DNA of 64,000 nucleotides from the NCBI GenBank assembly GCA_032622095.1, contig CP136064.1, forward strand, positions 215,402,205 through 215,466,204, in the 5' to 3' direction. This DNA comes from Siphonodentalium dalli (taxonomy: Eukaryota > Mollusca > Scaphopoda > Gadilida > Siphonodentaliidae). Below the pieces are notes generated by a model. The model saw only the letters and a program-made list of their open reading frames with translations. It was not told the DNA's origin and made no database searches. This document shows positions 10,464 to 52,128 of this stretch, piece by piece. Each line of letters begins with the position of its first letter. Within the stretch, counting starts at the first letter, position 1. The position numbers and the translations under genes were made by a program.

Positions 10464-13361
10464 CACCCCATGCATCCGGACATGCTCGTAGCGGAAGACA
10501 TGCTCGTAGCGGAATAACCACATGGCCCGCGATTTGCACACCGTTCACTGTTAGACACATGTTGCACCGAAACCAACACATACCAGTGGTTGACGGTGGT
10601 GGTATTATTTGTGGCTATAATTTACCCAACTGTACATCAAACTTCGTTAACAATGGACGCAGTTTAATCCTATTTTATCGGGAAGTTAGGCCAAAAATTG
10701 TGGCAAAATTTGCATTTCTTACATAAAATTACGATTTATGTGGTAACACCCCAGAAAATCTAGTCTTTGCATACATTGCTATTTCCGCGGATATTCCCTT
10801 AATATAATAGACAACATTTCCAGTCATGTATATACATTTTCCATATATAGTAAAAAATAACCATATATGCAGGTCATAGCAAGAAAATATTGTATGTCTA
10901 TAGTATAGCAGTGGTATGACATGTCTATAGCACCAGCGATTTTATAATGATGTGCTCGTAGCAGATTTGCTTTTAGGATAATTTCAACAACTAGACCTTT
11001 TGTTAAGCTAAAACGCAACGCTAATCATGTGGATAGTAGTAATCAAGCCCGAGTCGAAAGAGTCATTTGGTTAAATGCATGAAGAATAAGTAGTGGCATT
11101 CAAAATGACATGCATGGTCGTCTTCGTGTGTGGACACTATATTATTGTGTAAATCGCAAATTAGTAATATAATATTGGGATTTGATAACAAAGTTTATTG
11201 AAAAGATGCAAAATTGGTGATGTTCCACATGCACGCGGCTATTTTCGAGCGAAAATAATTTTGAACATTTGATTAACAGCTGTGGATCGGTATCATTCAG
11301 ACACTTTTTGCAATTGCACATTTTATTTATTTGAACATATAACATAAATATGAAATACTATTAAAATCACGGAGGTCACTAATCGTTTAAATGTTTATTC
11401 TGAGCAATCTGTAGACGAACTTTTTCGGAAGGATTTTCTAAAGGATGATTGATAACTTTACACCCTCTTGTGCGATGTTCATAACAAACTTTTTCAATTA
11501 CTGCAGGCGATTTATTTCAATAAAACTATAAACTACTATTGTACAGTATATATATTAATACGATTAGTGGCCACCTTGTCTAAAAGAACGGAAAACTACT
11601 TTTCACCCGAGAAACATATTATATATGAGGTATTTGCCTTTAAAAATATAAATTAATGAATGTATATAAAGACTCTGTCTAAATTTAAAATGAATAAACG
11701 TATTTGATAACTAAAACATGAGGCAATCTATAATCTAAATATATAATATGTGTATAAAAAAGGCTTTTATCTGAGATTAACGTATTTGATAACTAAAATA
11801 TAAGGCATTTTGCTTTTTAAAATAAACAATAAAGGTATAAAAAATGCTCTTATCTCAGATTAAAAATAAACGGAATTTACAACTAAAATATGAGGCATTC
11901 GCATTAAAAGGGACACTAAGACTACACGTTTGTTTTACGAAGCACAAAGATATAAAGGCTATAATAGACAAGTCTGGTCGTACCCGTAGTAGAATGGGAG
12001 ACATAAAATCCAACGAGGGAGACCTGTGAGTGGTGGTAGGTTCTCTTAATCAATGCAGTCGTTGATCAGATACACTTCATATGGAAGACCCAAACTGGGC
12101 TTGCAATCTATATACCGCCAACATTTTAATCCATAATATTGTCTGATTATAATCACACCCTTATGGTAGTAAACTATATATATATATATATATTTAGATC
12201 GTTAATTCCACCATTTCATTGACTATCAATCTAATTGTATGCCATTAAATTCTTTTGACCATGTTTTTCATAGCACATGTGGACTATTAGTAAAGTGTAT
12301 ACCATACTGACGATTGTTCGAAGATATTTGGAACTAAAATTTGATATCGTATTTTGTAACACTTAGTCTAAAAGTGTTACAATACCACAATAATCGCTTA
12401 TTATGTGATACCAGGGCGTTCTGCAAAAGTCTGAGTGTCACTTCACCGTTACACAAATTATGATAATCGAGATCAAGAGACACAGGTGCCGTCTCAATTA
12501 ACACGTACATGTATGTAATATATGTACATATTTCGTCTAAATTAATATTATAGCCATTCCCATATTGATAACATTTGTTTTATACAAATATTAATTATAG
12601 CCAAAATTTACTAGCACATGCATGCAACCTTCCGGATATAATGATTTTAGAAATTAAACTGTGAAATATACTGATGCAATGATTGCAATTTACAATGTGA
12701 ATGTTTATATAATGTAGCGTTTCCCGTGGCGGACACTAGCCACGTTAAATGATGTAAACGGCGTGAAGTGGTTAATTGTTACGTGGTACAAAATAGCCTG
12801 TCATTCATGTGATATATGTATATGCTAGCACTATCTAGACGCTCTTTTTAGTTGACAAAAGTGTGATTCTCTCGCATATACACATATTTTATATAATACT
12901 ACGAGCATATCACCCGATGCTATGAGCACATCATAGCAAGTTTTACGTTTGCTATAGACATGCCCCAAAATCGAGTGAGTGCCTCCATGGAAACTAATTT
13001 TTCGGGCACTAATATGATTGACATCGCAAACATGTCCAGTTCATTGTGAAGCTAAGATATCATACTTTGAGAGACTGTATGTTATATAATGTGTCAATGC
13101 AAAGATTCATTAAAATTTTATAAAACTTATATCGAGTAAGTATTTCAGTTCATAATTTTCGTATAAAACCCGATTATCGAACAGTAATATGCAAATTGCG
13201 GAAACCACAACCGCTCATTTCTGTAACAAAAAATCAAGGTAAAATGAACCGTGTTTTTATGAAATAACTTACACCTAAAGACGATGTGCAAATCGCGGGC
13301 CATTTGGTTATTCCGCTACGAGCATGTCTTCCGCTACGAGCATGTCCGGATGCATGGGGTG
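10464..13361. mobile_element. 2.9-kb DNA transposon with 77-bp terminal inverted repeats
   Basis: The left end CACCCCATGCATCCGGACAT (from 10464) is repeated inverted at the right end (to 13361). The two ends agree over 77 bp with one mismatch, through TAACC, ATGGCCCGCGATTTGCACA. Each TIR holds two tandem copies of GACATGCTCGTAGCGGAA. Related words occur inside as inner inverted repeats (GTGCTCGTAGCAG near 10951; ACTACGAGCATATC and GCTATAGACATGCC near 12900-12965). Flanks are TATAT-rich, so a TATAT-type target duplication is possible but not provable. No transposase is seen, so it is non-autonomous; the superfamily is unassigned. Confidence 0.85.
12174..12193. repeat. TA microsatellite
   Basis: Ten TA units inside the long-TIR transposon. 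Confidence 0.9.
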
Positions 13362-25513: not shown

Positions 25514-26712
25514 GTCAAGTTTTTTTGGCAGTCGAACCAAACTTCTGCCAATAAATAAGGTGCACAACTCCGGGAAAAAAAGTTGGACGGTGGTATATTA
25601 TTGCAATAGATCTACATGTATATACCAAATATCAATTGAATCTGTTAATATTTCATTCAGTTATCGCACCAACGGTGATAAAATTGTGATTAAAATAGAC
25701 AAACTAAGACCCATAACTCCGGAATTTTTTTTCGGACAAACCAGGTTTTCGAACTCGTCCGAGATATTGTTGCAATTGACTCATATACCAAATATTGTTT
25801 AAATCGGTTAATATTTCATTGAGTTATAACGCTAACGTTTATAACATTGCTAAAAATAGACAAACTAAGACCCATAACTCTGCAAAAATAAATTCGGACA
25901 AACCTGGTTTTCGAACTCTTCCGAGATATTGTTGCAGGGGACTCATACACCAAATATTGTTAAAATCGGTTAATATTTCATCGAGTTATCGCGCTAACGG
26001 TGATAAAATTGTGATTAAAATAGACAAACTAAGACCCATAACTACGTGAAAAACATTTGGACAAACCTGGTTTTCGAACTCGTCCGAGATATTGTTGCAG
26101 GACACTCATACACCAAATATTGTTGCGATCGGTTAATATTTCATCGAGTTATCGCGCTAACGGTGATAACATTGCTAAAAATCGACAAACTAAGATCCAT
26201 AACTCCGCGAATTTTTTTTTGACAACCCTGGTTTTCGAACTCGTCCGAGATATTGTTGCAGGAGACTCATATAACAAATATAGTTGAAATCGGTTAATAT
26301 TTCATCGAGTTATCACGCTAACGGTGGTAAAATTGCTAAAAATTGACAAACTAAGACCCATAACTCCGGATTTTTTTTCTCGGACAAACCTGGTTTTCGA
26401 ACTCGTCCGAGATATTGTTGCAAGAGTCTCATATACCAAATATTGTTGAAATTGGTTAATATTTGCGTGAGTTATCGCGCTAACAGTGAAAAACTTAACT
26501 AAAAACCATCTAAGATGGATAACTCTTGGTAAAAAGTTCGGACGTGACCCATTTTCTACAGGCAGTAAATAGTCATTGGGAGCAACTGCCATACCAAATT
26601 TTTTTGGAATCCGTTCACAAATGTCAAAGTTATAAGGCATTCTTTAGGTCTGCCCGCCCGCCCGCCAACCGTCCCTCGTCAAACCATAAGTCGAGATTTT
26701 GAAAAACTCTAC
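25514..26712. repeat. Element with six tandem 162-bp monomers
   Basis: GTTAATATTT recurs at 25644, 25807, 25969, 26132, 26293 and 26455 (spacing 161-163). Each monomer carries GACAAACTAAGACCCATAAC and GGTTTTCGAACTCGTCCGAG. The array lies between GTCAAGTTTTT and AAAAACTCTAC, a short terminal inverted pair, and ends with CCCGCCCGCCCGCC-rich text. A second copy with two monomers is at 50527-51044. The structure matches tandem-core, non-autonomous Helentron-like elements of bivalves (inference). Confidence 0.85.
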
Positions 26713-39500: not shown

Positions 39501-42500
39501 TGCAATATGCCCTGCTTGACTTTTACATTGAAGAAAGTTGCAGGTAGAGACTGATTTGTTTGTATGTTTTTACGATGTCCACGATGTAGCACTGAGTTTG
39601 AATGTACTTTTAAGGCCTTCTTTCCTTCGTTTCCGTAGCTGATATCTTTGTTGCACCACCAACATTTTGTGAAGCCAGGACGGTCAATTTTTCGCACAAA
39701 GTCAGACAAATAGTCACCATTGGCATCCTTTTCTTGAAGCCAGCTCCATTTAAATTTATTTTTAATATTCTCCTCCTTTTTCGAAAGATCTTCCTGACTT
39801 TTTCAATTCCATCATTTAATGCCGATAACACAAAATAATTATCGCCGATCGAGCAATAAACACTTTGAATTCTTGGAAATATATTGGCGCCAGATCGGCA
39901 CCGTAATTTCAATGTACAATCCATCGCGTTTGGCTGATATTGAAGCATCGCAGAGTCTCTTGCAATAGCAGGGCCAATCAACAGAGGCATCGTAAATAAC
40001 TTTGTCTGTGACGGGTGAATCGAAAAGTTAGCCGGTGCTCGTAATAATGGCCGGCTTTTTTTTTTACAAGAACAACAAATCGCCGGCGAACTTCATCGAT
40101 GTCCGATTTTCGCTTCGCAAACCTCACCCCCTATAATTTTCGTTCGGATTTGTAGTTATCTTAAGAAACAATAACCCAAAGCTGCTTAGTAATGAATATT
40201 GATGAAATAATTCCGGAATTAATTTTCATTCCGGAAGACTTGTGATTTTTTTTAGAAAATCTCGGAAAACTTTCATCTCTGGCCTTAACCCTGGAGTTTC
40301 CTGAAATTTTGCAAAAACCCTAAGCCAATGCATTCTTATATATATGATAATCTCCCATAGGGATCCTCGCATAAATAAGAGAATACATTGGCCTAAAATA
40401 TTTACCTTGACCTTGTAAGCCAGTGCTTTCTCTAATATTTGCGAGGCTCCTTATAGGACTCATTAATATAAGAGAATGCACTGGCAGCTCCAATCATGAA
40501 AAGGTTATTAATGCAGATTAACCTTGCATCCACCATAATTTAATAATGCAGGCTATAAAAGATCACGACCAAAATGTCCCCCAACAAAGGTGGCATGTTT
40601 CAGATCCCTATACTACAAACTGTACGAGAAATTGATTACCACAATATGATACAATGTACATATTCATTGAATATGCCTGGAAAAAATTGACTGGAAAATG
40701 ACGGAATACTGGCTTGGACAAAAGATGCATCCAAGGATGTACAATTCTATGTCGAAAAATGGCCATAACTCCACCAAAATGAGTCCGACTGAACTCACAA
40801 TCGAAGGTGTGCAGGTTCCCCTATAGGTAATCCCTATATGATGTACAATGTCATAATTTTTCATTCTTTATTTCAAATTAAATTAGTTTATATCCATTAT
40901 AAAGTTCTCCCTATATTTTCTGGACCTGGGAAGGTATAATAACCCATGCTTACTATGGACAGAAAAAAACTAAAAAACTAAATTAAAACCCTCGCTCCCG
41001 CATTGATCTTAAAAAAAATAGCCTGATAATCAAGTATCTTTTTTGTTTGGCCTAAGAATGTAATTTGTCATACAGCATCACCAATGTCCAGTTCATGATA
41101 AAGACAGACAAGTGATGACAGAAAACAATGCACATCTTAATCATGAATCTGTTACTAAATGAGTTGCAGATTTGTCAACTTGCAAGGATATATTTCACGA
41201 AAGCGGAGCTCAAGTGAAATGTAACAATGAGTTGCCCACATCAAGTTCGATTAAAGATTTTAAATTCTGATACAAATCATATTCTGTTTATTTAACATCC
41301 TCCTATCGGGTAAACCAATCATTGACTACAACCTCCATTACTATAATTGTAATTAAACCTGACAAAAAACTGTCAATTAATGGAAGCAGATTGCTGGCGT
41401 AAATATATGTCATCTCTCTCTTGAAAACAAAATAAACACGAAGTAGTTCCTGCTTATATTCAATGTGTCCGTTGAATACATGTGCCTTGTGCCTACGGTT
41501 GTGAAATAAATAATAAATATTTTGTTTAATGTGACTGATTAAAGAAAGACCAACCTCATGTTCCACCATTCTTTTGTTGGCTAAATCGGCTTTGTTTCCC
41601 GATAATGCAATAACAATGTTTGGACTAGCCTGCCTCTGTAATTCTTTCACCCATGACTTTGCCCTGCTGAATGTGTCCTGAAAATATTAAATTATTAAAG
41701 GTATAAAGAAGAAATAGATTTATGTTTTGTCATGATAATGTCATGGGAATTTCACTATGAGAAAACTGCAACTACAATCAAAAGGAATGTTTTAATCAGC
41801 TAAATACTTTATCCATGCGGATAATGAGCCACAGCACAAAGTAAATATGGCGGCGATGCCCACATTTACAAGTTCTTACTCGTATGTGAGTCTTCCAAAG
41901 TATGTTCTTTGCGATATAAATGTGGCATTTGTGCGTGATAATGATTTGTTATATCCCATATAATTTGAATAAACTGTTGGATATCAAGCATAATTGATTA
42001 AAGAGTTCATTTGGCCGAGAGCATCTTGTCATATGATCATGAATAGTACATTGACTATGATAGGTCATCGCAAGTGATTTCGAGTCTATGACTGTTTGAC
42101 GTCAAATTAAAAGGTTGTACGTGCACTTTGATGAGGCAACGTCACCAATTATTCCAGTCTATGATGAAATTCTTTGATCATATTTATCAATTATGGTCTT
42201 CAATTTTTATGCTTTGAAGCTTTGGTAATGGTAAATATACTATAATATAGTAGAGCTCATATACTATGAATCAAATCAAAACTTTAACTCAAAATCAAAA
42301 TTTTATTCGATGAATCTAAGGCCCTAATTCATTTATTAGTTTATTCAAGTTATCATACTTATGACTCAAAAAATTAATCAAATACCATTCCCGCACATAC
42401 AAATGTCAGGTCTCACTGAATGTTTTTTCATCTCAGTCATGTACATGTAAATTAATTTTTGTAACACCTTCATTCATACCTGGTTTGTGATATCATATAC

Positions 42501-45500
42501 AACAATGGCAGCCTGAGCTCCTCTGTAATACATCGGTGCCAAGCTGTGATATCGCTCCTGTCCTGCAGTGTCCCATATCTCAAATTTCACTGTCGTGTCA
42601 TCTAGACAGACTGTTTGTGTGAGAAATGCAGCTGAAAAAGAGAGCAAATCTCAAATTATTAATCATCGCTGAAACAATTCTGAATGTGGCAGAAATGATT
42701 AGAAGTTTAAGACCTGCAATAAAATTTACAACAAAACAATAGGATAGGATAGTCTGAGAGATGCTTTTAAAGAATTATGCAGGGTGTCCGCTATGGGTTT
42801 AGGAAAAGGAACCCTAAAACCGCTAGGGGAAAATCTCAGTCCATTCCATGCAACTAACTATTTTTTAAAATCAAAATTTTGAAAAACTAACGCCGTTATA
42901 ACTTCTGCGAGGGTAACCTGAGTCACCGTATCAAATTTGGTCGAAATCGGTCCAGGGGTCTTGGAGAAAAATCCTGACAGACGGACAGACACTACTCTTT
43001 TAAATACATGTATATTAGATGAGTAAATCAGATCAGAATTTTTTTTTTAGCCCATTTCTGAGTTGATTCCTTGACTTTATCTACTTATATACCTGTAGAT
43101 GTCTACAGAAATATAAGTAGATAGAGTAAACAAATTGTAATTGTGTTCTTATCTGTAACAAACTAAAAGGAAAACTAATGCAAGGGTGTTGTCATTAGAC
43201 ATTTTGCGACAAAACCTTTAAGTTACTGGCAGGTCAAAAGCAACAACAGTAGATGAAACTGTTAAAATTTCCAATTTATTTCTATATCTAACTACAATAT
43301 ATTAACGAAAACATTTTTGATATCATTAAATATCCGGATCAACCTTTATTGGCCAGTTTGATAATATTAAAACTCCATCTTATTTATATGATGTTGATTG
43401 TAAACTTGGTCTAGTTTGCATGAGACTGACATCTGGCCTGCATAATCATTAAACAGTTCAAATCCGCGAAGGACCTACATGTGTTCAAGTCTGAGTTTAG
43501 TGTGCCTGTCGTTTGCAGAATGAGGTCCCCAGAGGGTGAATTTAGTTACACTATCCCACATAGCAGGCTGGCATCACTAAATTCACCCTCTGGGGACCTC
43601 ATTCTGCAAATGACAGACACCATATCCTTGACAAGGACATCTCATTTCAGCATGGTTCCCAACAAGCCTGAGTTTAGTGTGCCTGTCATTTGCAGAATGA
43701 GGTCCCCAGAGGGTGCATTTAGTGACGCAATCCCACATAGCAGGTTAGCATCACTAAATTCACCCTTTGGGGACCTCATTTGACAAAGGCCTCATCTTCT
43801 CTGGAAAGTTTATCAAAATTGGCAGATGACACATTACAAAATTGAGGTTCCCAACGGATGTACATCACAATATTCACCATTCAGGAACTTAAATCTGAGT
43901 ATGTCTCCCATGAGGTCATGCAGATTGAAGTCCCCAGAGGGTGAATTTGGTGACAATAGCCTGCTGGATAGCATCACTAATTTCACCCACTGGGGTCCTC
44001 ATTCTGCAAATGACAGGCACACTAAACTCAGGCTTGCATGTGTTATTTGACAACATAATGACAATGTAACGCCCCCATGATGTGGGCGCAGTGCACTCCC
44101 TTTGTGAACTGAAGTTTTAGTTCAAATTTGTAGCACTCTTGTCGGTGATTAGATATGCCACTGTATCGACGGTCAACTGTGCTGCTGACTGGGGCTGAGT
44201 GAACAACGGACAATGCATGTGATAACACATGCGTATTACATGTACATGTGTATATGCGTGTGAGTGAGTGGACTGTAAATGAGATTATGTGCGCTTGTGT
44301 TATAGATGTCAGTTGGTTATTATGTAGTTCAGAGTAAAAGTGTGTTACAGTATATGCAGTACTTTGCTTTTTCGACTCCTTCTATCTTCCCCATACTTAT
44401 ACATACATGTGTACTTCCCAAAATTTGGTCCCTCTAACAGGATCCCTGGACTAATCGTGAATTCAACAAAGGAATGCACAAACATAAGGATATGGGTATA
44501 GCTAGTTCGCAAGGCCGATGCTCTCATGGACTTACAATCTCTGGAGTACGCAGAGGAACTCTTAGATATTCAATGGCTGATCAGAACTAATGTTAAAACC
44601 TTTGGTTGATCATCCTGAGATCTAACAGAACACATAGAGAATGATGTGTATCTCAGAAAAATTGATCTTATACATTAGAGGATGCTATGTGAGGTGTACG
44701 AGAAAGGTGTCCCATGATTGGACAGTGTCTTGATGGATATCTAGATGTACATGTAAGATAAACGTTCACAACACAGCTGATACAAAATTTCCCTGTCTAG
44801 CAAAGCAGTCCCTCAGGCGCTTTGCGCGATGACAGACGTTCAACCAACGTTCGTGTGACCGATGGTCTGAACCCAGTAAATACAGAGCTCTTTACAGCTG
44901 CTTTGCTTCTCCTTGCAACTTGATTCCTTGTCAGATATATCCTCAGTCAGATTGTCTTGCTTCTGGAGAACACACTAGTATACTCAGAATTCCATACGAG
45001 AGCGATGTGCTCTCTGATGTGCTCATGCCTGTATGTGAATTTGCGAATGAGGTACTACATGGTTCACAGACACTAGATAGTTTTCAGTCTCTTGGAAATT
45101 TGAACTTGATAGTTAATTCGCGTGACATATTTTCATATATTGTTTTAGGTCTTCTAGACGCGTATTCTGTATTTTAATATGAATTACTCAGATACTTGGC
45201 AATCCCGAACAAATTCACTTTTGGATTGAATTTCAAGATGTCCACAGCGTGCCAAATTTTGAATGGATATTTCAATGGAAATTTAAATCTGCGCTGCTTC
45301 TGACTTTGGACTTCTGCTCGGAGCTCCCAGAGGATGTCGTGAATCAGATATGCCACTGCATCGGATGGTCAACTGTAGTGACGATTGTGGCTGAGTAAAC
45401 AATTGACAATGTACGTGACAACACATGTGGTATGATATGATCATGAGTGAGTGAACTTTGATTGTGACTATGTGCGCTTGTGTTGTTGATGTCAGTTGGT

Positions 45501-48500: not shown

Positions 48501-51500
48501 AATGTTGAGATAAACAACTGTTAACCCTGCTCTAAATGCTGCCACACATTGCCGATTACCAACAAGTGGGAACCGGTGTAACAGGATATGTCCTCCCCCC
48601 TAGACATCTCCCCCCCCCCCCCCCCCCCCCCCCATGTACGACTAAAAAATAATTTCACTCATTTGATATCGTTGGGTCCTGAAATGGCCAGAAAAATGTT
48701 TTTTTTTTTTTTTTTTTTTTTTATTATTTTAAAAAAAAAGTGACCATTTTTTTTTAACGTATTTGATTGTTTGTTCCTGAAATGGCCAGATTTGGTTTTT
48801 TTTTCAAACGTCCAGGCTTGGAAATTCCCCCCCCCCCCCCCAGCACCTACATGACAAAAAAATCATTGTATGGTTTTATTGCTTATTTTGCTTTATATAG
48901 TCATGAACGGCGAGAAATTAACTTCTTCAGAGAAAAAGTTTTTAGAGTCAGGGTTTGGGGTGGGGGGGGGGGGGATGTCCAGGTCAGGATATCTTCCCCA
49001 CCCAGCACCTACATGACAAAAAAATCATCTTATGGTTTTATCGCTTGTTTTGCTTTATAGTCATGAAACGGAGAGAAATTAACTTCTTCTGAGAAAAAGT
49101 TGTTTGAGTCAGGGTTTGGGTGGTGGGGGGGGGGGGGGGGGTGGGGGAGATGTCCAGGTCAGGATATCTACCCCCACCCCACCCAGCACCTACATGACAA
49201 AAAGTCATCTTATGGTTTTATTGCTTATTTTGCTTTAGATATTCATGAAACAGCGAGAAATTAACTTCTTCTGAGAAAAAGTTTTTACAGTCAGGGTTTG
49301 GGGTGGGGGGGAGTGGGAGATGTCCGGGTCAGGATATCTCCCCCCTTCCCCCACCAAGCACCTACATGACAAAAAATCATCTTATGGTTTTATCGCTTAT
49401 TTTGCTTTATATATTCATGAAACAGCGAGAAATTAACTTCTTCTGAGAAAAAGTTTTTACAGTCAGGGTTTGGGGTGGGGGGAGTGGGAGATGTCCGGGT
49501 CAGGATATCTCCCCCTCCCCCACCAAGCACCTACATGACAAAAAATCATCTTATGGTTTTATCGCTTATTTTGCTTTATATATTCATGAAACAGTGAGAA
49601 ATTAACTTCTTCTGAGAAAAAGTTTTTTGAGTCAGGGTTTGGGGTGGGGGAAGATGTCCAGGTCAGGATATCCCCCCCCCCCCCCCCCCCACCCAGCACC
49701 TACATGACAAAAAAACAAAAAAATCATCTTATGGTTTTATCGCTTATTTTGCTTTATATATTCATGAAACCGCAAGAAATTAACTTCTTCTGAGAAAAAG
49801 TTTTTGGAGTCAGGGTTTGATGTGGGGGGGGGGGGGGGGGGATGTCCAGGTCAGGATATCTCCCCCCCCCCCCCCCCCACCAAGCACCTACATGACAAAA
49901 AAATAATCGTAAGGTTTTTATCAATTTATTTTGCTTATATAGTCATGAAACAGCGAGAAATTAGCTTATTCCAAGAAAAAGTTGTTTGAGTCAGGGTTTG
50001 GGTGGGGGGAGATGTCCAGGTCAGGATGTCTTCCCCCCACCCCAAACCCTGACAACTTTTGCTCGGAAGAAGTTAATTTCTCTCTGTTTCATGACTATAT
50101 ATATAAAGCAAAATAAGCGATAAAACCATAAGATAATTTTTTTGTCATGTAGGTGCTGGGTGGGGGGGGGGGGGGGGGGATATATCCTGACCTGGACATC
50201 CCCCCCCCCCCCACCACAAACCCAGACTCAAACAACTTTTTCTCGGAAGAAGTTAATTTCTCGCCGTTTCATGACTATATATGGTGCTGGGTGGGGGGGA
50301 AGATATCCTGACCTGGACATCTTCCCCCACCCCAAACCCTGACTCAAACAACTTTTTCTCAGAAGACCTGGACATTTAAAAAAATGAAATTAAATAAAAA
50401 CAAATTTAAATCTCAAATGTCATTTTTCTAGCCATTTCAGGATCAAACAATTAAAATGTGTGATGAAAAAATATATATTTTAATAAAAAAAACAAAAAAC
50501 AAGGGGTATGCATCTAAGATGCTTTTGTCGAGTTTTTTGGCAGTCGAACCAAACTTCTGCCAATAAGGTGCACAACTCCGGGAAAAAAAGTTGGACGGTG
50601 GTATATTATTGCAATAGACCTATATACCAAATATCAATTGAATCCGTTAATATTTCATTGAGTTATCGCACTAACGGTGATAAAATTGTGATTAAAATAG
50701 ACAAACTAAGACCCATAACTCCGGAAAAAAATCGGACAAACCAGGTTTTCGAACTCGTCTGAGATATTGTTGCAAGAGTCTCATATACCAAATATTGTGG
50801 AAATTGGTTAATATTTGCGCTAACGGTGAAAAACTTAACTAAAACACATCTAAGATGGATAACTCTTGTAAAAAAGTTTGGACGTGACCCATTTTCTACA
50901 GGCAGTAAATAGTCGTTGGGAGCAACTGACATACCAAAATGTTTTTGAATCCGTTCACAAATGTCAAAGTTATAAGGCATTCTTTAGGTCCACCCGCCAA
51001 CTGTCCCTCATCAAACCATAAGTCGAGTTTTTGAAAAACTCGACTAAAAATCATTTTTCTGGCCATTTCAGGATCAAACTATGAAAAGTGTGAACAAAAA
51101 AATTGTCACTTGAGAAAAAACAATTTAAAGTAAAAAAAAAATATTAAATCTCAAAAAAAATAAAAAATCTTACCATTTCAGGGTCAAACGATATCAAATG
51201 AGTGAAATTATTTTTTAGTCATATATGGGGGGGGGGGGGAATATCCAGGGTGGAAAGATATCCTAGGATAACTTCCCCCCCACGGAGGAAGATATCCTGG
51301 GGGGGGGGGGGGGGGAAATGACGTGTTACACCGGTACCGCATTTATGGCACATTTACCATGGATCCAATTCTGGTACTGGTTGAGAACCCTGATTTAACC
51401 CTATCTATTACTAAACCATTATTGAGTAGTTATCCCATAGAAAATATTCAGATAAGAAGTTCAACAAACGACCAATAGTCTATTTTCTAAACATTTCCCT

Positions 51501-52082
51501 CAATAAATAGGGCTACTCCTGCACTTTTATTTATCTGTCGTCTGCTTTTATCACCTGTAAAATGAATAATAGACCATTCCGATGTACACTTTTTAACTGA
51601 CTGGGAGAATCAATTTACATGTAGTATAGAAAGATTAAATGCATTGAAGCAAACTTTACATACAGTAATGCCCAAAGTAATTGACCACTTAACCACAGCA
51701 GAATTATGGGTAATTTTTGAGGATTTAGTCGGAAATATGTTGCCAGAGCTTTCCGATGAATGGCAACAAGCCATATTTCCGACTAAATCCTGAAAAAGTA
51801 CCCATAATTCTACTGTGGTTAAGTGGTCAATTACTTTGGGCATTACTGTATGTACATGTACCGGGTATACACAGGTGGTGCAGAATCAGATAGTTTGGCT
51901 TTAATTATGCCTAACTTACCTCCTATCGTACTCTCCTGATATTCATGAAACTGTCCTTTCACGAAGCGTAGAACTAAACTAGATTTGCCAACAGCAGACT
52001 CTCCCAACAAAACTAATTTGAACTGGCAGATTTTGCCCTGTGTCGTTCCATTAGGTCGCTGTGCACCGCTACGTGCAGCCAT
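36441..52082 (-). CDS. Rab5: Rab5 small GTPase, five coding exons
   Basis: Rab5 recruits effectors to early endosomes and drives their fusion and cargo sorting. The joined exons (52082-51920, 42631-42480, 41677-41555, 37338-37245, 36553-36441) encode 214 residues; animal Rab5 is about 215. Visible motifs: P-loop GESAVGKS (27-34), switch I Thr52 in QESTIG, WDTAGQE (74-80) with catalytic Gln79, NKAD (133-136), ETSAK (161-165), and the C-terminal CCSK with tandem cysteines 211-212 for geranylgeranylation. Intron phases are 1, 0, 0, 1. All introns are GT-AG; intron 3 has a weak GTTGGT donor. A TTGCAG acceptor 46 nt before the ATG implies an upstream 5' UTR exon not located here. Introns 1 and 3 are inflated to 9.3 and 4.2 kb by transposons. 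All GTPase residues are intact, so the gene looks functional. Whether it is the only Rab5 gene of the genome is unknown. Confidence 0.97.
36700..37190. repeat. Diverged tandem-repeat fragment in Rab5 intron 4
   Basis: Repeated phrases GGGAAATACACAT(A/T)CCAA and GAAAC(A)AAAATGTT, with CGGACAGACGGACGGACAAC near 36784, show decayed units of the 150-bp family seen at 1-480. Confidence 0.6.
37245..37338 (-). CDS. Rab5: Rab5 coding exon 4 (residues 147-177)
   Basis: Acceptor CATCCAG, donor GTAAGT. Encodes [20 protein letters not shown], including the ETSAK base-binding motif, then [11 protein letters not shown]. 94 bp, ending one base into the Ala codon. Confidence 0.95.
38067..40281 (-). mobile_element. 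hAT transposon, internally deleted, in Rab5 intron 3
   Basis: Perfect 8-bp duplication GCCTTAAC at 38059-38066 and 40282-40289. Terminal repeats CAGAGATGAAAG and CTTTCATCTCTG. 2215 bp. The transposase frame is on the minus strand and is broken; its middle, with the catalytic core, appears to be missing. The duplication includes the TTAA and first base of the adjacent family A MITE, so this element inserted after that MITE. Confidence 0.93.
38541..39800 (-). pseudogene. hAT transposase remnant: BED-like zinc finger plus C-terminal dimerisation domain
   Basis: Two overlapping frames remain. The N-terminal frame (stop at 39350) contains CWWCNKDI, then [18 protein letters not shown], a CxxC...H...H zinc finger of BED/TTF type that binds transposon ends; its open frame extends upstream of 39709 through [16 protein letters not shown]. 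The C-terminal frame (38541-39389) has [20 protein letters not shown] and ends lysine-rich, matching the hAT C-terminal dimerisation region. The frames meet at 39350-39389. Intact relatives have several hundred residues between these parts, including the catalytic acidic residues, so the core is deleted. A separate 126-codon frame (39610-39990) may be 5' leader rather than protein. It cannot make an active transposase. Confidence 0.85.
40285..40510. mobile_element. TTAA fold-back MITE family A, next to the hAT
   Basis: TTAA at 40285-40288 within the right hAT duplication, then CCCTGGAGTTTCCTGAAA; right end GCTCCAATCATGAAAAGGTT. Carries GCCAATGCATTCTTATATAT and ATAAGAGAATGCACTGGC arms. The right TTAA is degraded (TTATTAA). 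Confidence 0.72.
41113..41490. mobile_element. Dispersed repeat family G in Rab5 intron 3
   Basis: GAAAACAATGCACATCTTAA, then AATGAGTTGCAGATTTG, and the complementary GTTCGATTAAAGATT match 23541-23715. Similarity continues to CCGTTGAATACATGTG (near 41472-41487), 65 bp from exon 3. Confidence 0.65.
41555..41677 (-). CDS. Rab5: Rab5 coding exon 3 (residues 106-146)
   Basis: Acceptor ATTTTCAG. Encodes [13 protein letters not shown] and the guanine-specificity motif [10 protein letters not shown]. 123 bp, 41 codons. The donor is GTTGGT, weaker than the others; the exon end is fixed by continuity with exon 4 (GAG then GAAGCACAG). Confidence 0.95.
42480..42631 (-). CDS. Rab5: Rab5 coding exon 2 (residues 55-105)
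   Basis: Acceptor TTTTTCAG, donor GTATGA. Encodes [12 protein letters not shown], the switch II core [11 protein letters not shown] and [15 protein letters not shown]. 152 bp, ending in phase 0. Confidence 0.96.
43486..44036. mobile_element. Composite hAT MITE family E carrying captured spacer
   Basis: Perfect 8-bp duplication CATGTGTT at 43478-43485 and 44037-44044. Ends CAAGTCTGAGTTTAGTGTGC and CACACTAAACTCAGGCTTG. The interior contains a first hairpin ending in GACAGACACCATATCCTTG, then a non-MITE spacer (about 43631-43663: ACAAGGACATCTCATTTCAG, CATGGTTCCCAA), then a second CAAGCCTGAGTTTAGTGTGC start. The spacer is nearly identical to the sequence lying between two separate MITEs at 29869-29900. 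Confidence 0.88.
44150..45600. repeat. Diverged direct duplication (44150-44420 and 45345-45600)
   Basis: Shared phrases in the same order: AGATATGCCACTG, GTCAACTGT, TATGTGCGCTTGTGTT, GATGTCAGTTGG, GTGTTACAGTATATGC and GACTCCTTCTATCTTCCC. The copies differ by many substitutions and small gaps; the middle (44640-45180) is not duplicated. Confidence 0.75.
45620..48571. other. Gene-free part of Rab5 intron 1
   Basis: 46540-46680 and 47030-47130 share GGTGGTAC/ GTGGTATCACCGC-type CGGT-rich text and may be the two ends of a decayed element (TAACGAGGTT at about 46524, AACCTCATTA at about 47098). TA microsatellite at 46082-46095. No exon recognised. Confidence 0.4.
48572..51335. mobile_element. 2.8-kb fold-back element with G-run/C-run satellite
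   Basis: Outer ends ACCGGTGTAACA and TGTTACACCGGT. Inside them, ATCGTTGGGTCCTGAAATGG on the left pairs with CCATTTCAGGGTCAAACGAT on the right. The core has seven direct units starting near 48841, 49003, 49184, 49356, 49526, 49694 and 49883 (CAGCACCTACATGACAAAAA, then GAGAAATTAACTTCTTC, GTCAGGGTTTGGGGTGGGG), then inverted units from about 50035. Each unit ends with a G run, AGATGTCCAGGTCAGGATAT, and a C run, which folds as a hairpin. The right arm is interrupted by the tandem-repeat element at 50527-51044. No target duplication was found. Confidence 0.85.
50527..51044. repeat. Second copy of the 162-bp tandem-repeat element, inserted in the fold-back arm
   Basis: It begins GTCGAGTTTTTTGGCAGTCG and ends GAAAAACTCGAC, with a 23-bp palindrome at 51022-51044. 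Two monomers (GTTAATATTT at 50645 and 50806, the second shortened). Internal text is nearly identical to 25514-26712, including GATAACTCTTG and CATTTTCTACAGGCAGTAAA. Confidence 0.85.
51395..51638. mobile_element. TTAA MITE family C in Rab5 intron 1
   Basis: TTAA at 51395-51398 and 51635-51638; left CCCTATCTATTACTAAA, right AGTATAGAAAGA. Internal GAATAATAGACCATTC matches 27999-28253. Confidence 0.75.
51663..51848. mobile_element. Hairpin MITE, TA target, 71 bp from Rab5 exon 1 donor
   Basis: CAGTAATGCCC ... GGGCATTACTG flanked by TA (51661-51662, 51849-51850). Arms contain AACCACAGCAGAATTATGGG and its complement. The left arm has lost about 25 bp near the loop compared with 2852-3062. Confidence 0.88.
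51920..52082 (-). CDS. Rab5: Rab5 coding exon 1 (residues 1-54)
   Basis: Encodes the variable N-terminus, beta1, the P-loop GESAVGKS and switch I up to STIG. Ends one base into the next codon; donor GTAAGT at 51919. The non-coding part of the exon extends to 52129, behind acceptor CTCTCTTGCAG. Confidence 0.96.
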
Positions 52083-52128
52083 ACTATGTTAGTTTTATTT
52101 TTACCAAAAATGATGAGAAAACTCTGAA

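Follow-up and report, generated by a model that had tools for sequence, protein, structure and literature searches.

A satellite-armed fold-back element in Siphonodentalium dalli, probably an internally deleted Ginger1-type transposon

The window, a 64,000-nt stretch of the Siphonodentalium dalli genome, contains one copy of a fold-back element (window 48577–51330, within the piece 48,501–51,500). This copy is very probably a gene-less, internally deleted Ginger1-type transposon, in which satellite units have lengthened the terminal inverted repeats (TIRs) toward the interior. It is read as an internal-deletion derivative because complete copies carry Ginger1 marks between their arms. Ginger1 identity was assigned by published marks, compared by description, and on this sequence evidence the case for it is strong.

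The window copy and its dispersed family

The layout of the window copy is given in Table 1. The direct units start at 48842, 49004, 49185, 49357, 49526, 49695 and 49883. The first-pass annotation had described seven direct units followed by inverted ones, and this was confirmed, the inverted units amounting to one full and two partial. It had also placed an outer inverted repeat (ACCGGTGTAACA / TGTTACACCGGT) at 48572 to 51335. Such a repeat is present, but these limits include the CCGG target; the repeat proper starts TGTAACA and terminates on the right in TGTTACA, with CCGG immediately beyond both element ends. The unit edge was composed as described, with GATGTCCAGGTCAGGATATC between a G run and a C run. 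The window copy is without any gene and is a damaged example, since its right arm contains a nested insert.

Table 1. Features of the fold-back element in the window
Feature	Window position	Strand	Remark
Left target duplication, CCGG	48573–48576	no strand	Direct reading; status as target duplication from empty sites elsewhere
Left outer terminal repeat (A-type end), TGTAACAGGATATG..., holding C-run motifs in subterminal position	48577–48841	+	
Left arm, seven satellite units	48842–50000	+	Spacing 162–188 bp
Flip, a single intact unit edge: AGATGTCCAGGTCAGGATGTCT between G run and C run	50001–50042	no strand	
Right arm, inverted units	50043–50366	-	One full, two partial
Right outer terminal repeat, ending ...TGACGTGTTACA (B type)	50367–51330	-	Broken by nested insert
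Nested insert, an unrelated repeat, ends AGTCGAGTTTTT / AAAAACTCGACT	~50500–51050	no strand	Approximate limits; 161-bp internal repeat
Right target duplication, CCGG	51331–51334	no strand	Direct reading

The nested insert looks like another repeat-bearing mobile element because of its ends, and its text (ATACCAAATAT..., GCTAACGGTGA) is similar to that of a 161-bp tandem array at window 25620–26505. Elsewhere in the window, two tandem copies of the 18-mer GACATGCTCGTAGCGGAA (10479–10514) have their exact reverse complement 2.8 kb off (13311–13346); the pair possibly represents the ends of another element. The proposed setting of the fold-back element within an intron of a Rab5 gene is consistent with the Ras-family exons that flank it on the minus strand (51846–52088 and 42477–42650), the gene being presumably Rab5 rather than another Rab. 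An imperfect, MITE-like palindrome (ATGCCCAAAGTAATTGACCACTTAACC.../reverse complement, window ~51669–51850) lies beside the Ras-family exon.

A search of the window's own genome (2.23 Gb, nine contigs) for further copies, as the first-pass annotation had proposed, revealed a dispersed family. With up to three mismatches, the A-type end word occurs at 1,120 places and its reversed control at 2; for the B-type end word the figures are 1,062 and 3. Eighteen further loci were read, 14 of which contain two opposed arms of ~170-bp units. Right-facing units are followed by left-facing units, with one turn, in 12 of these (L006–L016 and L018); L020 also has one turn but is built of partial units, and L022, with a more complex turn, is the only locus with more than one. 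The remaining four (L017, L019, L021 and L023) have one arm only within the pieces fetched. Over 477 full units from the window, the further loci and the C9 copy described below, unit body columns match the majority letter at a mean of 0.969.

These results bear on the concern that the inversion might have arisen in assembly, or be a one-off inverted duplication of a satellite local to this site. Long homopolymer runs are difficult to assemble, and exact unit numbers are uncertain. However, the end words greatly outnumber their control matches, independent copies have the same layout, opposed arms recur in copies on all nine contigs, and precise empty sites are found. The 1,120 places of the outer word against 2 for its control, together with the recurrence of opposed arms, show that the layout is neither chance nor a local assembly fault, and an artefact is very improbable as a general explanation.

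From the best 100 of the 1,120 A-type ends, approximately every fifth was sampled, a set of 20 that is biased to well-kept ends and to contigs C1–C6. Fifteen run into units and three (L024, L035 and L039) belong to short elements without units, while for L037 and L041 the outcome is undecided within 1 kb. Two of the short copies, L035 and L039, have a common flank, CATGTATTATAT, which is likely to be a second repeated host site.

Target duplication and unit-edge motifs

Six loci (L003, L004, L007, L008, L011 and L012) have nearly the same flanks, at 99.8–100% identity on one side and 95–99.3% on the other, because the element occupies one place in a multiplied host repeat; these six share a single insertion point. 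The filled copies of this host repeat read GCAACCGG-TGTACC...TGTTACA-CCGGTACATT, and the empty copies L048–L050 read GCAACCGGTACATT, with CCGG once. The 300-bp left flank of the insertion has 23 listed matches in this host repeat at 99–100%, and the three element-free copies match the joined flanks at 96–97%.

Empty copies, which the first-pass annotation had suggested looking for, were found for three of seven insertions (L012, L016 and L020), and for L009, L010, L013 and L022 there were none, in each case among the matches listed. In the empty copy L047, CTGG occupies the position at which CCGG flanks the element in the filled copy. The L016 insertion is less simple. The first three host copies (L044–L046) read CACATTCCAT, are without the tetranucleotide and its surroundings, and fit neither duplication model. 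A pattern search for the predicted empty site gave 10 near matches, none of them exact, of which four were fetched. Two of these, L075 and L076, align to the joined flanks and have CTAG (CACATACTAGTACCAT), two letters off CCGG; L074 and L077 align less well and were excluded. Comparison of L044–L046 with L075 and L076 therefore reveals two versions of the L016 host repeat, and CCGG itself is absent from the empty copies of this repeat that were examined.

Since the empty sites keep one tetranucleotide, they indicate that a 4-bp CCGG-type target is duplicated, and that the inverted repeat starts at TGTAACA. The termini are TGTAACA...TGTTACA, some copies having TGTACCA instead at one end. Many ends read TA-CCGG, with T before ACCGG in 18 of the 20 sampled ends; a TA duplication was the initial reading and was dropped after the empty site GCAACCGGTACATT. 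A Tc1/mariner-type fold-back with TA target duplications, which these ends would suit, deserves hardly any weight and is ruled out by the empty sites: a CCGG-like tetranucleotide is kept there between the flanks. In addition, some ends (L055, L059, L062 and L067) are without TA, and the linked gene encodes an integrase and Ulp1.

The edges of the satellite units repeat the subterminal motif of the subfamily to which they belong, with three motifs in three subfamilies. Subfamily A has GGATATCTTCCCC motifs both in the TIR and at unit edges. Subfamily B has GGGTATC/GAGTATC in the inner TIR motif and at the edges, and subfamily C has GTTTATC in both places. Subfamily B departs from this pattern, since GTTTATC, the C-type motif, stands outermost in its TIR and only the inner subterminal motif matches the edge. 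Motifs beside C runs were counted in 13 of the A loci, all four B loci and all five C loci. GGATATC occurs 302 times in A and never in B or C; GGGTATC and GAGTATC together occur 26 times, all in B; and GTTTATC is absent from A, occurring twice in B and 23 times in C. A shared-word test of TIRs against edges gave values above shuffles in most pairs, but separates the subfamilies poorly, as they all share TATCTCCCC; the motif counts do separate them. Arrays of subfamily C have a period of 185–196 bp and a body that is undetected by the A-unit profile.

The edge core GATGTCCAGGTCAGGATATC is present, with up to seven substitutions, in 446 of 448 edges, and is exact in 287. Within subfamily A, edge conservation is 0.977 against 0.969 for the unit body; because this is only slightly higher, selection on the edge motif is unsupported within that subfamily.

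Gene-bearing copies and the turn between the arms

In L015, the arms are parted by 302 bp, one frame of which is part of Peptidase_C48 (Ulp1; E 2.9e-7, above the cut-off). A peptide search with this relic gave 49 matches in the same genome, several of them beside satellite arms. The C9 copy begins with the end CCGG-TGTAACACG and consists of 43 right-facing unit matches, a core of ~10.8 kb and 43 left-facing unit matches (both counts including partial units), for a total of ~25.7 kb. Its right outer repeat is truncated. At this right end (L053), the cut-short repeat is followed by AAAAACAAACACGAAGACGG, the reverse complement of left-flank sequence, which suggests that the locus was rearranged later or that the host sequence is palindromic here.

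The C9 core is read on its minus strand, where individual exon pieces gave matches to Integrase_H2C2 (4.5e-11), rve (9.4e-10) and Peptidase_C48 (2.7e-5), all above the cut-off. The last exon reads WTGPYEI, with a match to SH3_Tf2-1 (3.6e-5) below the cut-off. For the YPYY motif there is a candidate first exon, which gave no Pfam match, and three other open stretches of the core matched no Pfam family. Published Ginger1 elements encode a gypsy-like integrase with H2C2, DDE, GPY/F and YPYY, and a C-terminal Ulp1 or OTU protease. They have a 4-bp target duplication of CCGG (75%) or CCGT/ACGG (24%) and TGTNR termini, with TIRs of 40–270 bp and lengths of 2.6–7 kb (Bao, Kapitonov, Jurka 2010; PMC2836005, as far as the parts of that account used here extend). 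The present family shares the CCGG duplication and the TGTNR termini, and the C9 copy has an H2C2 zinc finger, a DDE core, a candidate GPY/F-like stretch and a C-terminal Ulp1. It differs in its 43 unit matches per arm and ~25.7 kb (C9), which place TIR and length beyond the published ranges, and in its ~1,100 end words genome-wide.

The gene is flanked by an arm on either side in C9, C8:18.05, C2:1.71, C8:56.68 and C1:146.3, and the gene copy at C3:81.73 has no arm on the one side fetched. The C9 last-exon query is identical over 142 residues at C9 and at two other places, which on coding sequence points to recent movement. Twenty Ulp1 loci without known arms were also fetched, 3.6–4 kb being read where no arm was found. 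A or B units adjoin eight of the first 12 of these loci. A tandem-repeat search detected subfamily C arrays in L064, L067 and L068; the C motif, with fewer repeats, is present in L065 and L066, and L069 has two weak unit matches. There is no such arm in the 3.6–4 kb examined at L056, L063, L070, L071, L072 and L073, the last being the one inspected of the 16 weakest Ulp1 matches (37–38% identity).

Complete copies have a gene core between their opposed arms, and its loss accounts for the flip in the window. Once the core is deleted, the two opposed arms meet; the L018 junction, which joins a unit edge to the inner-border sequence of the C9 right arm, shows this directly. The first-pass annotation had suggested that orientation could flip at the unit edge, which is near self-complementary; in the model that follows from this, the edge is what inverts the array. 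The window flip is indeed exactly one intact edge, and some edges fold well: in single-stranded DNA folding of four edges, two (z-scores -3.3 and -4.6) beat all 200 shuffles, and the other two (-1.0 and -1.8) were not outstanding. As a rule for the family, however, the model fails. The junctions read were grouped manually into 11 types, and a single intact edge forms the junction in two of them (window and L006). Scrambled edge sequence does so in one (L009), an edge is present on one side only in four (L014, L015, L018 and L022), and the turn lies inside units in a further four (the six same-site copies, L002/L010/L013, L016 and L020). Breakpoints fall in edges in 10 of 22 cases against ~30% expected from edge length (P 0.09), a hint at most that the edge is somewhat favoured. 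In complete copies, moreover, the arms are parted by a gene core instead of a flip, and multiple turns are found in L022 only. Inversion driven by the edge is thus very improbable as the origin of the opposed arms.

Had one arm arisen recently as an inverted copy of the other, units in mirrored positions should resemble each other most, and this was tested in the 14 elements whose arms each have three or more full units. Of two ways of pairing units in mirror order, the closer one stands above the mean of the cross-arm comparisons by 0.012 at most (L014), and in C9 it gives 0.961 against a mean of 0.959. The arms are therefore homogenised, and a single palindromic duplication has left no trace.

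Probable exchange of arms or cores, and comparison with known elements

The arms are labile in length. Four same-site copies that were read whole contain 18 (L012), 21 (L011), 22 (L007) and 43 (L008) unit matches. The flank-to-flank distance ranges from 3,646 to 10,702 bp in 12 same-site copies, which were paired from the listed flank matches, with other listed places outside the pairing; the longest may hold other inserts. Unequal exchange and slippage could lengthen and shorten the arms in this way.

The arms also appear to be shared between lineages. The Ulp1 sequences form groups A1, A2, B and C, with DNA identities of 0.637 (A1–A2), 0.687 (A1–B) and 0.619 (A2–B). Unit bodies (26 A1, 91 A2 and 16 B units) are identical at 0.919 between A1 and A2, against 0.756–0.757 between A and B. 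Other parts of the gene give a concordant picture. Compared with C9, which belongs to A2, the DDE exon is 80% identical in A1 and 84–86% in B, the latter over 50–51 of 74 residues. For part of the last exon the values are 68–69% in A1 (61% in the damaged L055) and 64–65% in two B copies. In the stretch that separates the Ulp1 end from the array, A1 (L054) and A2 have no match at E 1e-5, and their arrays align at 84–90%. A1 and B likewise have no match over that interval; their arrays align at 72–74%, except for one 36-bp piece at 89%. L054 and L055, both A1, have a common gene-to-array border (94% over 1.7 kb), so that the A1 array belongs to the A1 lineage. Because Ulp1 is 64% alike between A1 and A2 while the arms are 92% alike, exchange of arms or cores between diverged transposase lineages is well supported at the level of sequence identity. 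Recombination between the arms of different elements might have swapped gene cores or ends.

What the arms do, if anything, is less certain. By analogy with Galileo, the unit-edge motif may be a secondary transposase binding site, the satellite units then being arrays of putative sites. Copies of the window type could be mobilized in trans, with complete copies supplying the transposase. It is quite possible, if short of probable, that the satellite arms are instead functionless passengers of Ginger1, a stretch of TIR having been expanded by slippage and unequal exchange, and the motif recurring at unit edges only since it lay within that stretch. The near-equal conservation of edge and body within subfamily A, the long G/C runs, which are prone to slippage, and the labile unit number would all agree with this. 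However, subfamily C, with its unrelated 185–196-bp body, still has its own TIR motif at the edges, and the gene is flanked by arms in several transposase lineages. A more tentative proposal is that the arms are interchangeable docking modules, each with dozens of transposase sites, by which diverged Ginger1 lineages recombine, and that they also seed dispersed satellite DNA.

Long TIRs with tandem repeats and arms that nearly meet are features that the present family shares with fold-back elements, and several described elements resemble it in part; the comparisons that follow apply to those portions of the cited accounts that were consulted. Tetris of Drosophila virilis is a fold-back element with ~220-bp tandem repeats of variable number in TIRs of up to 1,735 bp, an 8–10 bp target duplication and a short derivative, DAIBAM; it is apparently non-autonomous and without coding capacity (PMC4079207). 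The fold-back form, variable-number TIR repeats and short derivatives are common to both, whereas the present family has a 4-bp target duplication and gene-bearing copies. Galileo, of the P superfamily, has TIRs of up to ~1.26 kb with two or three tandem repeats, in which secondary transposase binding sites were detected by gel shift, and its long TIRs have been proposed to recombine, giving new subfamilies (PMC3573991, PMC3688188). It is similar in having long TIRs that hold tandem repeats, but its transposase is of another superfamily and its two or three repeats compare with 43 unit matches per C9 arm. Rehavkus, a MULE-like element, also has a minisatellite preceding a terminal repeat, but on the 3' side only, with a 9-bp target duplication and a PHD finger (PMC6446971). 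The oyster satellite CgiSat41 is listed with DNA/Ginger1 but has a 1,736-bp monomer, and no fold-back arms are described for it in the part consulted (PMC8268682). The statement in the first-pass annotation that no element of this design was known is therefore too broad with respect to TIR tandem repeats, which Tetris and Galileo possess. For a satellite-armed Ginger1 it holds among the papers listed on Ginger1 with satellites, inverted or tandem repeats, and Ulp1, no title or abstract opening of which describes one.

In this family, a satellite-like repeat can be assigned to an identified transposon, some copies of which bear genes, unlike the apparently non-autonomous Tetris as described in the portion consulted. 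The published range of Ginger1, short-TIR elements no longer than 7 kb, would widen to elements of ~26 kb with satellite arms. The three matched motif pairs in three subfamilies make the idea of site arrays directly testable by binding assays. Arms common to diverged transposases would provide a natural case of the swapping of ends or cores, comparable with what has been proposed for the long TIRs of Galileo in the sections of those reports consulted. If the arms do act as docking modules, a lineage could take on the ends or the gene core of another in place of its own, and a transposon end signal could seed satellites repeatedly, with unrelated unit bodies.
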